From contig NZ_JAKZGO010000006.1 of assembly GCF_022549785.1 (NCBI RefSeq), positions 124,001 through 188,000 of the forward strand: DNA of 64,000 nucleotides, written 5' to 3'. Positions 36,531 through 41,673 of this stretch are shown one piece after another. Source of the DNA: Belliella alkalica. GTDB lineage: Bacteria; Bacteroidota; Bacteroidia; Cytophagales; Cyclobacteriaceae. The translations under genes and the position numbers were made by a program. Within the stretch, counting starts at the first letter, position 1; each line of letters opens with the position of its first letter. Below the pieces are notes generated by a model. That model was not told the origin of the DNA. It ran no database searches and saw only the letters and a list, made by a program, of their open reading frames with translations.

Positions 36531-36841
36531 GGTTAATATTATCTATTAGGCAGGCAAATCCAAAAACCTTTCAGGTTTTATTGATAATCAACTATTTGTA
36601 AGTTGAAAGTATCTGAAACCTGGAAGGTTTTTACTCTCTACAAACCAACCTACTACAATAATATATTGCGGACTTTGGGGTAAAGTGGAAGAATACTTTG
36701 TGAAAAATTTGAAATAAACATCGAACCCATGGCTTGTATCCTCACCAGGCATTATTTTCCCATGTGACCTCCATGGCTTGTGTCCTCTCCAGCCATTTTA
36801 AATACTATAATTAAATTTTACAATTTGGTTGTTGGTACCAT
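36531..36841. repeat. Repeat region after ABC-F gene
   Basis: The arm at 36563-36578 pairs with 36616-36631 (one mismatch) around a 37-base loop; CTTTCAGGTTT and AAACCTGGAAGG, and the following CTACAAACCAA, recur after the aldehyde dehydrogenase at about 5571-5645. Two imperfect hairpins of the AGGA-loop family lie at 36729-36752 and 36773-36796 in minus orientation. The rest of this 311-base gap shows no gene. Confidence 0.7.
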
Positions 36842-37636
36842 TCAAGAATTTGCTCCCTGACTATTCTTAGTGAGCACTAAAGGGTCCTGTCTTAGCAAGT
36901 ACACCAATGATTGATAGAGTCTTTCATTATAACTTTTGAACTTCGATGATTTCTCAAAAAAAGCTTCCAAGGCAACTGCAAAAAACTCGTGTTCATTGAC
37001 TCCTGCCGATGACCGAAACAAGGAAGACTCTTGACTCCTTATTTTTTGAATTTCTGATTTTGCCAATTCTGAATATTTTCCCCAAAGTATTGGATTGAAA
37101 AAGTTGCTTTCCCTATTGTAATGGATTTGGTTTTCAAGTTTCATAGCATGGGCTATTTCATGAATTCCGAGATTTACCCCATCATCATTTTTGATAAAGC
37201 CCCTTACAAAGTTCTCCCATGACAATACAATAACTCCCAATTTTGGATTCACTTCCCCCTGATGGTATTGCTTGTTGATCGTCGAATAATAAGAATCCTG
37301 ATAAATCAAGATTCGTCTAAAGTGTTTTAGAGTCATTCCCTGAAACCCAAAAGTCACTTTCACGGCAGTCGCAGAAATCAACAGCTTCATCTCTTGCGTT
37401 ACAGCTTTCAATTCGCCCCTTGGCAGAAACTCTTTCTCCGCAATAAACCATTCTACTTTTTCGACAAATTCCTTCTTGTGGATATCTGAAAGTCCTGCAT
37501 AATAAGGAAACAGATTGGACAAAATATTTATATCTTGAGGAGAGAGCTTTTGCTTGGCAATCCTTACTTTGAAATTCTTGTAACTTGAATAAAACAACTC
37601 ACCAATACCGAAGAATAAATGCGTAAGTACAAACAT
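36842..37636 (-). CDS. MtfA-like zinc peptidase (M90 type)
   Basis: A 264-residue protein with a short hydrophobic start and a metallopeptidase core. The zinc motif HEIAH is in NLGIHEIAHAMKLEN, and the third-ligand Glu region is HEFFAVALEAFFEKSSKFK, which matches MtfA (DgsA anti-repressor, DUF980). The GVIVLSWENFVRGF stretch before it is also typical. In E. coli MtfA titrates Mlc and is an aminopeptidase; no Mlc system is expected here, so the role is open. Flanked on both sides by hairpin repeats. Confidence 0.85.
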   Translation of the reverse strand: MFVLTHLFFGIGELFYSSYKNFKVRIAKQKLSPQDINILSNLFPYYAGLSDIHKKEFVEKVEWFIAEKEFLPRGELKAVTQEMKLLISATAVKVTFGFQGMTLKHFRRILIYQDSYYSTINKQYHQGEVNPKLGVIVLSWENFVRGFIKNDDGVNLGIHEIAHAMKLENQIHYNRESNFFNPILWGKYSELAKSEIQKIRSQESSLFRSSAGVNEHEFFAVALEAFFEKSSKFKSYNERLYQSLVYLLRQDPLVLTKNSQGANS

Positions 37637-38000
37637 TAAAAGGAGCTGTTAGGTGGATTAGTAATTTTTACTAAAATAGAAAAAGTAAACTGACTAAAAA
37701 AGATGTTATTTGATTTTAAACCTTGGCTGTGTCTCCAAAAGCCATTTACATTATACATCTTTTTATCGACAAAAGTGTTCTGTGAGGACACAGAACATGT
37801 TGTTAAAAAAAAGAGAATGGTCTGTGGGGACACTGACCATGGTATTGGAATCTAAACTTGCAATACAAGTTATTGGTTATTTGTAGATCAATAATGAAAA
37901 AGCCCCCAAAATGATTTTAGGCGCTTTTTTGATTTTTCAAGGGATTAAGAAATAAATATCTAATTTCTTTATTTTTTTCTAATAAATTAAAGAAAGAGTA
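37637..38000. repeat. Hairpin-repeat intergenic region with terminator
   Basis: A 364-base gap between two minus-strand genes. It contains an eroded AGGA-family hairpin at 37724-37745, a perfect one at 37777-37796 (arm GTTCTGTG, loop AGGA) and one at 37817-37840 (arm ATGGTCTGTG, loop GGGA, one mismatch), then the terminator of the lipoprotein gene. A short minus-strand frame across it looks spurious because it only reads through the hairpins. Confidence 0.75.
37896..37930 (-). terminator. Terminator after the large lipoprotein gene
   Basis: On the minus strand an arm of about 15 bases (37914-37930) pairs with 37897-37911, with single mismatches, within 70 bases of the stop codon. T-rich on both ends in that orientation. 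Confidence 0.7.
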
Positions 38001-39584
38001 TTATTTCACTACTAAACCAACTTTCACACTTCCTGTATCATATTTATGTACAATTACAGAATTTGTATTAGTCGAAACCTCTTGCAAAACTGGATCATAA
38101 AAATACATCTTAATTGATCCTAAATAATCTGACTCTACACTTCTTAAAACGTTAATTTCAATAGGCTTAGTAATAGTTGTTGGAGACTCGATATTTCCAG
38201 CTACACCAATCGTTGAATTAACTTCTTCTTTGAGTCCAAGACTTATTTTTTTATTCCCAACAAAATTAGTCTCATGGGCAAAAGACATTTCAAAAGTTTC
38301 TTTATACATTAATTCTTCCCCTTCATCGTCTTCATATATTTTCAAATACCTTGTCAGTGGTCCATTTTTTATATCCCATTTACCTATATTAACTGGATTG
38401 GGTAAAACAACTAATTTAGAAGTAAACTTACTAGGGTCAATCTTATAAGTATGCTTACTCTTCCTAAACCATGTAGAGTGCCTGTAAGAATGATCTATAT
38501 TGAAGTCCCATATCTGATCTGGTCTGAGCGGAGCAAAAACAATTATTGGCGCACCTGAAGAAGTATATACTTCAAACCTAAAATCATATGATCCTTTAGA
38601 CCACATTCTGTCTATTAATTCCGCTGAAGTATATCCATTTCTGGATTTTCTAGTGACTCCTGAGTTTACAATAAATGGATCTCTATTATAGATTTGTGAA
38701 TCTCTTTGACCAGAAATATCATAATATACTTTGGGATCAATTTCCAAAAACTGAATATACTCATTCACAGAATGATTCAAACTACCTGTCATATTTTGAG
38801 GAGTAATTCCATAATAGATAAAGTCCCTTTGGAAACCTTTTTGGCTGATACTTCCGTCATCCTTATTAAAATGAGTGAAAGCATTAATTGCTTTCTGCCC
38901 AACTTCATTAATCCCTACAATTAATTCTTCATCACTTGAATGTGAATTGGTACCTTCAAATGCAGGTGATCTAAAAATTACTCTTCCTCTACTCCTAGCG
39001 TTATGGCTATTTTCAGGAATGATCACCCTGCTGTTTTCATTTACCACAAACACATGAAAGTTTGGAACTTCTCCCTTCTCAAAACTCAATTCTTCAACCC
39101 CATTGAAGAAAAGTGCATTTTCTGACTTCTTGGAAACGATAACCGGGATTTCTGTATCATCGGTATCCAGATTTTCTGGTAGTATATCAAAAAATTCGAT
39201 TCTTGACACATAGATGTTCAACAACGGGATGCTCCTTTCTATTTTTTCAAGCTCCTCCACAGAAGAATAAGAAATCAGAATATCACGGAGAGTCTCATTT
39301 CCAATCGTCTCATCTTTCACTAGGTAATACAACACATCATAATTCTTATCGAATTGCTTGAGAGACTCTTGCTTAAGAAATTCACGAACTTCTTTTCTCT
39401 CATACACTGCTTTCGATAAAATACTGGCAAACTTTGTCATATTCTCCTCTTTGATCGAGGCATTCAATGACTTTTTCACTTTCCCATTCTCTTGGAAATC
39501 ATTTTCCGTACATGCACTGAGAAACAAACCCATAATTAGGCCAAAGGTTAGACAAACCTTTAATGATAGTAATCTTGCTTTCAT
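38001..39584 (-). CDS. Large secreted lipoprotein, unrecognised
   Basis: A 527-residue protein with a signal peptide and lipobox FLSACTEND. The N-terminal third is helical and charged (TKFASILSKAVYERKEVREFLKQES); the rest looks strand-rich, with many Tyr, Asn and Ser. No catalytic motif or repeat is recognisable. The gene stands alone between hairpin-repeat clusters, downstream of a (GT)11 tract, with its own candidate promoter (TACCTTTG at 39680-39687) and terminator. Probably a surface or periplasmic protein of the accessory genome. Confidence 0.75.
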   Translation of the reverse strand: MKARLLSLKVCLTFGLIMGLFLSACTENDFQENGKVKKSLNASIKEENMTKFASILSKAVYERKEVREFLKQESLKQFDKNYDVLYYLVKDETIGNETLRDILISYSSVEELEKIERSIPLLNIYVSRIEFFDILPENLDTDDTEIPVIVSKKSENALFFNGVEELSFEKGEVPNFHVFVVNENSRVIIPENSHNARSRGRVIFRSPAFEGTNSHSSDEELIVGINEVGQKAINAFTHFNKDDGSISQKGFQRDFIYYGITPQNMTGSLNHSVNEYIQFLEIDPKVYYDISGQRDSQIYNRDPFIVNSGVTRKSRNGYTSAELIDRMWSKGSYDFRFEVYTSSGAPIIVFAPLRPDQIWDFNIDHSYRHSTWFRKSKHTYKIDPSKFTSKLVVLPNPVNIGKWDIKNGPLTRYLKIYEDDEGEELMYKETFEMSFAHETNFVGNKKISLGLKEEVNSTIGVAGNIESPTTITKPIEINVLRSVESDYLGSIKMYFYDPVLQEVSTNTNSVIVHKYDTGSVKVGLVVK

Positions 39585-39679
39585 AGCGAATAAATTGATA
39601 GTTAAAACAAATTAATAGTTAAAATAAAATTTTTGTCCTATTTCATATTGAAAAAGCAACTCTTCTATTTTTGAAGGTG

Positions 39680-39687
39680 CAAAGGTA
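39680..39687 (-). promoter_or_regulatory. Candidate -7 element for the lipoprotein gene
   Basis: On the minus strand TACCTTTG, followed by CACC, about 95 bases before the start. Shares TTTGCAC with other promoters in the window. No clear -33 box. Confidence 0.45.
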
Positions 39688-39910
39688 GATATTTTTAAAA
39701 AACATTACACTTTTCATTTAGAAAACACTCAATTTATACTTTAAAATATTGATTTTCAATTATATAAAACACAATCGCCAGCAATAAACCAAAATTTATA
39801 AAAAAGGCTGATGGAAAATGCTTTTAAAGTACTAATCATAACAAAAGTGATTTTTGAGATACAGAACACATGGTGGATTGTTTTCCATATCTCTTAGACG
39901 TCGGGAGAAA

Positions 39911-39932
39911 GTGTGTGTGTGTGTGTGTGTGT
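39911..39932. repeat. (GT)11 dinucleotide microsatellite
   Basis: Twenty-two bases of uninterrupted GT. It lies about 330 bases upstream of the lipoprotein start and next to the hairpin cluster. Confidence 0.98.
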
Positions 39933-40033
39933 TCTGAGAAGACACAAAGTGTGCTCTGTGAAGACACAGAGCACGGTTGAAGGGTTGGAAAAAAATTATT
40001 AGAAAATGGTCTGTGAGGACACTGACCATGTGA

Positions 40034-40064
40034 CAAAAAAACGGCCTGTGAATACACAGGCCGT
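40034..40064 (-). terminator. Terminator of rny, also a member of the hairpin repeat family
   Basis: Perfect 10-bp stem ACGGCCTGTG (40041-40050) with 40055-40064, loop AATA. The A-run at 40035-40041 is a T-run on the minus strand. It lies 44 bases after the rny stop. Confidence 0.85.
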
Positions 40065-40107
40065 AGATTAATTTTATTACAGTTGACTATTGACAGTCGA
40101 CCGTTGA

Positions 40108-41673
40108 CTATTTAGCATAACTCACAGATCTCATTTCCCTGATTACGGTGATTTTGATCTGTCCTGGATACTGCATCTCTTTTTCGATTTTTTGGGAAAT
40201 ATCAAAAGACAATTGACTTGCCGTTTGGTCACTCACATTGTCAGCATCTACCAATACGCGTAATTCTCGACCTGCTTGCATCGCAAAGCATTTGTTTACT
40301 CCATCAAAGCTCAATGCCAAATCTTCAAGATCTTTCAATCTCTTGATATAGCTATCCATGATTTCCCTTCTTGCACCTGGTCTAGAACCAGAAATCGCAT
40401 CTGAAGCCTGTACGATCGGTGAAATCATAGACGTCATTTCGATTTCATCATGGTGAGCTCCTATAGCATTACATACTTCTGGATGCTCCTTGTATTTCTT
40501 CGCCAACTCCATACCCAAGATCGCATGTGGAAGCTCTGCTTCCTCTGGGTAGACTTTTCCGATATCATGTAGCAAACCTGCTCTTTTCGCCATTTTGGCG
40601 TTCAATCCCATCTCTGCTGCCATGGTCGCACATAGCTTGGCTACTTCTTTTGAATGTTGAAGCAAATTCTGTCCGTAAGATGAACGGAATCTCATCCTTC
40701 CTACCATCCTGATCAACTCCGGATGAAGGCCATGAATCCCTAACTCAATACAAGTTCTTTCACCAATCTCTACAATCTCTTCTTCGATATTTTTTTCTGT
40801 CTTGGCAACTACTTCTTCGATTCTCGCAGGGTGGATTCTTCCATCCTGTACCAATCTGTGAAGCGAAAGTCTCGCTACTTCCCTTCTTACTGGATCAAAT
40901 CCAGATATGATGATTGCTTCTGGTGTATCATCTACTACAATCTCTACTCCTGTAGCTGCTTCGAGGGCACGGATATTTCTACCTTCCCTACCGATGATCT
41001 TTCCTTTGATATCATCACTTTCGATATTGAATACTGACACGCAGTTTTCGATTGCATGCTCAGTAGCCGTTCTTTGTATCGTATCCAATACAATCTTCTT
41101 GGCTTGCTTGGTTGCAGAAAGTTTTGCTTGGTCAAGGATATCCTTGATATGTGATGAAGCTTTGGTGTTGGCTTCGTCCTTGAGCATTTCTACAAGCTGC
41201 TCTCTTGCTTCTTCTTTGGTCAAGTTGGCAATTTTCTCCAAATCAGCGATTCGTTGGCTAGTCACTCGGTCTAGTTCATCTTTTTTCACCTGAACCGAAT
41301 GCATTTGGGCATTTAGGTTTTCCTTCTTGCTTTCGAGTTCAGCTTCTTTGCGCTTAACTTGTTCCAGCTCTTTGGAAAGCACCTGCTCTTTTTGTTTGAG
41401 CTTGTTTTCGTTGGTGATGATGATGGCCTTCTTCTTATTAGCCTCTTCTTCAAACTCAGATTTTAGCTTGAGGTATTTTTCTTTGGCTTCGAGAATTCTG
41501 TCCTTTTTCAAAGACTCTGCATTCATTTCCGCTTCACGCAGAATGATTTTGGCTTTCTCTTTTGCATCCTCTTCTATTTTTTTGTTGTTGCCTTTTAGAA
41601 AAAAGCCTACAACCAAGGCGCCAATCCCAAGTCCTATCAGACCTGCAATGATAATGTATATTGATTCTCCCAT
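40108..41673 (-). CDS. rny: Ribonuclease Y
   Basis: A 521-residue membrane-anchored endoribonuclease. Layout: N-terminal membrane helix ([20 protein letters not shown]), a long charged coiled coil (about 30-205), KH domain ([19 protein letters not shown]), and HD domain with [11 protein letters not shown] and later [17 protein letters not shown]. Length is the family norm. It starts mRNA decay at the inner membrane. It is the last gene of a run pheT, coiled-coil protein, zapA, rny. Confidence 0.97.

Follow-up and report, generated by a model that had tools for sequence, protein, structure and literature searches.

Short palindromic repeats of bacterial genomes have been described in several kinds. 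Those of the GTAG kind, the repetitive extragenic palindromes (REPs) and REPtrons that go with a REP-associated tyrosine transposase (RAYT), are intergenic palindromes of 20-40 bp that occur in many copies, form dimers and arrays, show paired stem variants and prefer convergent and unidirectional gaps between genes (PMC3733652; here, as for the other papers cited, the statements refer to the portions of the text consulted). Repeats of the CGTC kind (RPE, dRS3), which also occur in Bacteroidetes and have A/T pairs at the stem foot, are reported as unlinked to transposase genes (PMC3733652). Repeated hairpins of Bacteroidetes termed 'atypical secondary structures' accompany transposases of TnpA subclass 2.6 (PMC6006769), and the consulted part of a further paper counts REPs in three Bacteroidota species and does not describe the family treated here (PMC12306157). 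Finally, Table 1 of Weinberg et al. 2010 lists a GUCCY-hairpin for Bacteroidetes and Proteobacteria, with no Rfam number and with both its status as an RNA and its role in cis-regulation marked '?' (PMC2864571). The present study concerns a family of small hairpins that lies in a stretch of 64,000 nucleotides of Belliella alkalica, referred to as the window (C51:124001-188000 of the host genome G000, which comprises 4.95 Mb in 105 contigs). We consider it probable, at about 0.6, that these hairpins belong to a single REP-like family of the Bacteroidota, made up of small palindromic elements that are non-coding and non-autonomous and were spread by the route proposed below.

The copies share an asymmetric consensus of 26 nt, TTGGTCTGTG-RGGA-CACAGACCAA-GG, in which a stem of 10 bp encloses a 4-nt loop (read as TCCY on the opposite strand) and is followed by a foot of GG; in size and copy number the family agrees with REPs in the broad sense (palindromes of 20-40 bp in many copies). 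It shares with the GTAG repeats all of the traits listed above, including the preference for certain gap types, and differs from them in that no GTAG motif (GT[AG]G) lies within 15 bp on either side, only GG following the hairpin, and in that no Y1 transposase gene read here is bounded by the family. With the CGTC repeats it shares the occurrence in Bacteroidetes and the A/T pairs at the stem foot. It has neither a CGTC/TGTC/CCTC tag nor a CCA-like tail, carrying instead a GG foot on the RGGA strand, its stem has 10 bp against 8-9 bp, and head-to-tail pairs, which make up 54/80 of its neighbour pairs, are described as negligible in CGTC families (PMC3733652). The hairpins found here around genes of the TnpA subclass 2.6 type have other loops and other stems. 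The closest match is the GUCCY-hairpin, a hairpin by name and listed for Bacteroidetes; because the minus-strand loop of the window family reads G-TCCY-C, the motif was probably already named in 2010, and a comparison by name, table row and taxa, rather than by alignment, makes it very probable that the two are the same. The Proteobacteria also listed there are a difference, none being among the 120 GTDB stretches listed in our scan, and the main text of that paper, in the portion consulted, mentions the motif once, without copy numbers or a REP-like description (PMC2864571). A literature search for 'GUCCY' gave only this paper as relevant, judged by the listings; the strings tgtgaggacaca and tgtgtcctcaca had no match in the literature searched, and a search for Belliella together with palindrome returned only work on the clustered regularly interspaced short palindromic repeats of Porphyromonas. 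With the motif itself probably named earlier, what is new here is the REP-like behaviour, the core conserved across orders and the missing mobiliser.

An earlier annotation of the window, made from its letters alone, had described five good hairpins and several eroded ones in a 3.3-kb region, and the five are located as claimed, as 24-mers at 37775-37798, 37817-37840, 39951-39974, 40006-40029 and 40041-40064. Four are proper copies on the plus strand, each recognized by its fold and by both covariance models described below: 37775-37800 (GTGTTCTGTG-AGGA-CACAGAACAT, tail GT), 37817-37842 (ATGGTCTGTG-GGGA-CACTGACCAT, tail GG), 39951-39976 (GTGCTCTGTG-AAGA-CACAGAGCAC, tail GG) and 40006-40031 (ATGGTCTGTG-AGGA-CACTGACCAT, tail GT). 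The second follows the first at 42 bp in equal orientation, and both have an identical 24-mer at the orthologous place of the congener G004. Compared with dinucleotide shuffles, four of the five good hairpins fold clearly better (z -3.1 to -8.2), the excess being weaker for 40006 (z -2.4).

Two covariance models were used, R1 from the five window copies and R2 from 38 copies of the own genome, which R2 matches by construction. R1 has 57 hits in the own genome at E<=10, counting both strands; at E<=0.01 it finds 28 distinct places, 23 of them outside its training set, and R2 finds 42 distinct places at E<=0.012. Exact matches of the core GTGAGGACAC number 18 in this genome against 7 for a reversed control. 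An alignment of 41 copies, collected without regard to the tail, has G in 37/41 and A in 40/41 at the final two loop positions and, on the RGGA-loop strand, G in 38/41 and 33/41 at the two positions that follow the stem, the sequence beyond hairpin and GG being near random. Rfam recognized no family in the window at its gathering threshold; at E<=1 it gave only a long non-coding RNA family in 36700-40100 (E 0.39, away from the hairpins) and, on four element-carrying loci, only the microRNA family MIR6462 (E 0.14).

Beyond the own genome the family is patchy, both within the genus and in the phylum. At E<=0.05 the R2 matches in eight Belliella congeners number 45, 3, 10, 0, 86, 37, 31 and 1, counts that include some hairpins on both strands. 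Among the Cyclobacteriaceae at least 101/295 genomes match at E<=1e-3, and in a phylum sample at least 9/394, among them the own genome, do so at E<=1e-4, and the nine belong to the same class; owing to stricter filters both figures are lower bounds. Two genomes of the phylum sample outside the family Cyclobacteriaceae, G372 and G537, carry many copies. In G372 three copies lie exactly 136 bp apart (G372:C4:248464-248765), a spacing that suggests a larger tandem unit. A pattern scan of GTDB genomes gave at least 120 stretches where chance would give about 0.5 matches (by hand arithmetic, with equal base frequencies). All 120 listed titles are Bacteroidota, taking the genera that they name to belong to that phylum, and they cover Cyclobacteriaceae, Pedobacter, other Sphingobacteriales, Chitinophagaceae, Spirosomataceae, one Flavobacterium and other or unclassified Bacteroidetes. 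A search for three-copy arrays in plasmid and phage collections had no match, and one stretch matched among viral contigs.

Loop and tail are conserved while the outer stems change in pairs, and this holds also for copies that were not chosen by structure. Stem-pair covariation among model-chosen rows is structure-picked; the tests on exact-core copies and on the GTDB core matches are unbiased. In 17 of the 18 exact-core copies of the own genome (one lies outside the fetched loci), 103/119 outer positions pair, compared with 84.5 on average and at most 96 when the 3' arms were re-dealt 2000 times. In the 120 listed GTDB stretches, 58 of 200 core matches fall outside the scan pattern; 50/58 have at least six of the seven outer pairs, these 50 using 33 different 5' arms, and GG is present in 44/58, the reversed control giving 3 core matches with 2 pairs each. 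Across 12 gap-free orthologous copies aligned with G004 (3 of 15 rows had indels and were dropped), 105/120 pairs are unchanged and four have changed on both sides and still pair, Watson-Crick to Watson-Crick; a mismatch is involved in 8 of the other changed pairs and a wobble in 3. A single pair of loci (L055/L093), possibly paralogous, accounts for two of the four paired changes, one equals the neighbouring copy in the same array (L097 against L060), and one row of the alignment (L056/L103) sets a copy against an inverted one. The 39951 hairpin differs from its matched G004 copy by a paired C-G to T-A change, in a stretch of 70% identity. The compensating changes had been taken to imply selection on the folded form. 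What stands is that pairing is kept between copies; orthologous copies change mostly by mismatch or wobble, and copies beside rny in G007 are eroded. Constraint at the time of spread, or copying from repeat to repeat, accounts for the pairing better than upkeep of every copy does.

Copies lie outside called genes in 137/143 cases (41 of the own genome and 102 in relatives' loci, the latter fetched because they hold copies); the other six comprise four in one 75-aa open reading frame (ORF) and two at gene starts. The gene calls behind this figure, and behind the ortholog and orientation counts, come from a simple codon-score script. In the own genome the copies form 26 clusters, 14 singles, 9 pairs and 3 triples, which is the combination of intergenic singletons and groups typical of REPs. 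Gap types and orientations were counted in 117 of the 120 listed GTDB stretches (those of at least 2500 bases), in which 17 edge and 3 overlapping clusters were dropped from 120; with 6 further clusters scored inside genes, 94 were left for the gap counts. Convergent gaps hold 25/94 clusters against 14.4 expected by gap length and divergent gaps 7/94 against 16.5 (gap-type test, p 0.0013), and the copies favour the 3' ends of genes. Neighbour spacings below 200 bp, 80 in all, have a mode of 44 and a median of 46, with 29 at 41-47 bp, and the corresponding pairs are direct in 54 cases and inverted in 26; paired inverted copies are the mobile unit in bacterial interspersed mosaic elements (BIMEs) and in REPINs, the paired REP hairpins. 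One G004 locus carries two stem subtypes in opposite orientation in a BIME-like manner. When orthologous gaps are aligned between the window genome and G004, whole repeats are seen to have been lost or gained, as recombination between copies would give, and a three-copy array, with its flanks about 185 bp long, has no counterpart at the orthologous site in the window genome.

The hairpins are one family by sequence and structure, with many dispersed intergenic copies, arrays, inverted pairs, strongly differing copy numbers in the genus and a patchy presence beyond it. The suggestion that they might be REP-like elements finds support in the number of copies, in their placement between genes, in the arrays and inverted pairs that they form and in the covarying stems. 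In the mechanism that we propose, the element would have spread as single-stranded hairpin DNA through a structure-recognizing enzyme acting in trans, and this putative enzyme would read the fixed loop and the GG foot while tolerating many paired stems. Such an enzyme would explain why loop and foot are kept while the stems covary and why the conserved strand is only weakly related to transcription; the fixed polarity of loop and foot, taken with that weak relation, would point to recognition of single-stranded DNA. Arrays would then grow and shrink by recombination between copies, many copies would decay, the intergenic and 3'-end placement would reflect tolerance, and individual copies may incidentally help to end or protect transcripts.

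A RAYT-type transposase encoded elsewhere had been proposed as a check on this interpretation. Five Y1 transposase genes do exist elsewhere in the own genome, each among arrays of other hairpins; none is adjoined by a convincing family copy, the best R1 match in their flanks with filters off having an E of 0.3. Within the genus the number of Y1 genes does not track the number of element matches (Spearman 0.37, p 0.37, n=8), and among element-rich congeners G005 has only a broken Y1 gene and G006 one distant Y1 gene. Transposase remnants lie beside copies at two loci, L120 and L124, and look like a coincidence; the hidden Markov model behind that search was built from 9 of 34 possible seeds, a strand filter having removed the rest. 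A cluster of ORFs shared by seven loci lies on the repeats themselves and was set aside as spurious translation.

The Y1 genes of the own genome are of some interest in their own right. Four lie between repeated hairpins, at L075 (C1:446000-456000), L076 (C10:44000-54000), L077 (C95:15000-25000) and L078 (C1:76500-86500), each with its own hairpin type; they have DHxH and YIxxQxxHH motifs and fit subclass 1.2 of PMC6006769, which the consulted part of that paper lists without REPs. At L079 (4300-5650, C40) a TnpA with NHIH and YIHENP lies inside tandem units of about 162 bp, which carry two or three different hairpins.

Several results weigh against a mobile REP-like family. A sample of 81 Y1 loci (44 + 37) was drawn from 171 Y1 matches (166 + 5) in 26 genomes, namely 25 element-rich genomes of the Cyclobacteriaceae and the own genome, and an element or fragment at E<=0.05 (R2) lies near 5/81. 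The three near-element loci that were read (L288, L289, L338) have other, different repeats around the transposase: L288/L273 and L289 hold one transposase type in two genomes, bounded by its own repeats, with elements 0.3 and about 1.6 kb away, and at L338 the element is 0.7 kb from a transposase with its own different hairpins. At L290 the elements are more than 2 kb from the Y1 gene, and at L282/L343 the match is an 18-nt fragment. A cognate Y1 RAYT as linked mobiliser was accordingly rejected, there being no convincing link at these 81 loci. Nor did any other neighbour protein convincingly recur when ORFs were compared at 105 of the 145 loci L113-L257 and at the genus loci, the shared ones looking like orthologous gene order or common families. 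Because neither Y1 nor another protein family convincingly recurs beside copies, the mobiliser was not found and could be extinct or unlinked. In addition, the single presence/absence case examined spans about 185 bp, and an empty site opposite a precise insertion of 26 nt was not seen; two of the four proper copies in the window carry the full GG tail and the other two GT; and REPs are described as species-specific in sequence in the portion of PMC6006769 consulted, in contrast to the core shared across orders here. Three further observations concern transcription. Read in reverse, 13/41 own-genome copies are T-rich against a background of 13% (forward, 0/41); clusters in the listed GTDB stretches tend to be antisense relative to co-directional genes (32 against 18 sense and 12 mixed, p 0.065); and in the own genome 9 clusters are antisense, 3 sense and 5 mixed. 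All three leave room for an RNA role.

These last observations bear on the proposal that the hairpins act at the RNA level, as intrinsic terminators or 3'-end protecting hairpins that spread because they are useful at transcript ends, in other words as mobilised terminators. The preference for 3' ends and convergent gaps in the listed stretches agrees with it, as do the antisense tendency, the T-rich excess in the own genome and at relatives' loci (21/102 reverse and 3/102 forward, again against 13%) and the hairpin of rny, which looks like a real terminator and was kept in G007 while its neighbours eroded. Across the phylum, however, T-runs occur near the background rate of 0.106 (23/174 copies in the reverse and 5/174 in the forward reading of the 120 listed stretches), so that the T-run of an intrinsic terminator is not a trait of the family and no general terminator signature is present; orientation is mixed within many clusters, and the best terminator, at 40041, has neither the family loop nor the foot. 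A transcribed signal or mobilised terminator, one of the earlier suggestions, thus finds no support for the family as a whole, and we regard an RNA-level explanation as improbable. Use of a minority of copies as terminators is possible, since the own genome and the relatives' loci do show the T-rich excess in the reverse reading; general use is not supported.

The core common to Cytophagales, Sphingobacteriales, Chitinophagales and one Flavobacterium among the matches listed, unlike that of species-specific REPs, would instead fit a binding site kept by the host, at which a conserved Bacteroidota protein recognizes the hairpin or its GTCC/GGAC loop in the handling of chromosome or mRNA. A site of that kind should hardly be missing as often as it is, with 0 to 3 matches in three congeners and none at E<=1e-4 in 385/394 phylum genomes, nor erode as it has in G007, and we hold this to be decidedly improbable. 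The covariation itself might be mutational, with template switching at quasi-palindromes and gene conversion between copies re-perfecting the stems; arrays do recombine between copies, and the paired change at L097 matches the neighbouring array copy. Such a process explains pairing, but neither the dispersal nor the conservation of loop and GG, which renders it very improbable as an account of the family. The probability of chance or purely local duplication, in whose favour only the tandem pitch within arrays speaks, is practically nil: the family spans genome and phylum, and the genome-wide search together with the core matches of the GTDB stretches and their reversed control rules this origin out.

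A REP-like element family is ordinary in kind, and the present one is unusual in the core shared across orders and in the missing transposase. As a rule a REP family is specific to its species, and repeats of the GTAG type go with a RAYT gene. The window family has one core sequence across several Bacteroidota orders, large copy-number differences within a genus and no linked transposase found, and makes the question of what moves or keeps REPs that have no transposase testable. If the identity with the GUCCY-hairpin holds, and it is probable only, a candidate RNA left unexplained in 2010 is suggested to be a DNA repeat. One extension, unlikely as it appears to us, is that an undescribed, conserved Bacteroidota enzyme other than a Y1 RAYT recognizes this phylum-wide hairpin and moves or uses it, which would be why loop and GG foot are kept across orders; the hairpin would then represent a third kind of bacterial palindromic repeat beside GTAG and CGTC.

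The fifth good hairpin of the window, at 40041-40064, deserves separate treatment. On the minus strand, that of rny, a run of seven T starts at its last stem base, directly after the stem as in an intrinsic terminator; its loop is AATA/TATT, and AG rather than a GG tail follows the stem. It had been regarded at once as a copy of the family and as the terminator of rny. The second part is consistent with the T-run, and the first is doubtful in view of loop and tail, so that it is probably a look-alike and not a family member. Its separation from the family proper also follows from G007, which keeps the terminator hairpin while the neighbouring copies erode. The terminator-like hairpin is common to the window genome, G004 and G007 with few changes; a hairpin with a T-run likewise stands on the 3' side of rny in G005 and G006, where it is related, and in G001, G002 and G003, where it is unrelated. 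Clear family copies (R2, filters off) lie 3' of rny in the window genome, G004 and G005. In G007 there are eroded copies only (E 0.017 to 0.07), beside the terminator hairpin at E 0.005, in G006 a single match of E 0.34, and in G001, G002 and G003 no match at E<=1. At the orthologous place of G004 (L094 4957-5244, C13) rny is followed by seven consecutive hairpins, of which six are proper elements and one is the terminator, and different small lipoprotein-like ORFs replace the 527-aa ORF of the window.

The window hairpins lie 3' of rny, on both sides of that ORF and around a peptidase gene, all three genes being on the minus strand. The gene rny (40108-41673), which encodes RNase Y with the Pfam families RNase_Y_N, KH_1 and HD, has three copies just 3' of it; the 527-aa ORF (38001-39584), between two groups of copies, has no Pfam family and, by eye, a lipoprotein-like start; and the M90 peptidase gene (36842-37636) carries Peptidase_M90. 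The eroded copies that the first-pass annotation placed at 36729, 36773, 37724 and 39931 may be relics and are weak at best, with E values of 0.5 to 3 or no listing. On the minus strand these are 36773-36796 (E 2.9 with R1; 0.99 with R2, at 36769-36798) and 37719-37747 (E 0.5 with R2). A possible copy at 36727-36753, without assigned strand, is 89% like 36771-36797 and was listed genome-wide by neither model. The degenerate partial copy at 39926-39948 on the plus strand resembles the reference copy at 62%, and its fold does not surpass that of shuffled sequences (z -1.5). It adjoins a TG-repeat run at 39911-39932, which immediately precedes it and the 39951 hairpin. Just after a gene of the ABC transporter type, a 32-nt inverted repeat (75% complementary) that ends in T-runs occupies 36562-36632 and looks like an ordinary terminator.

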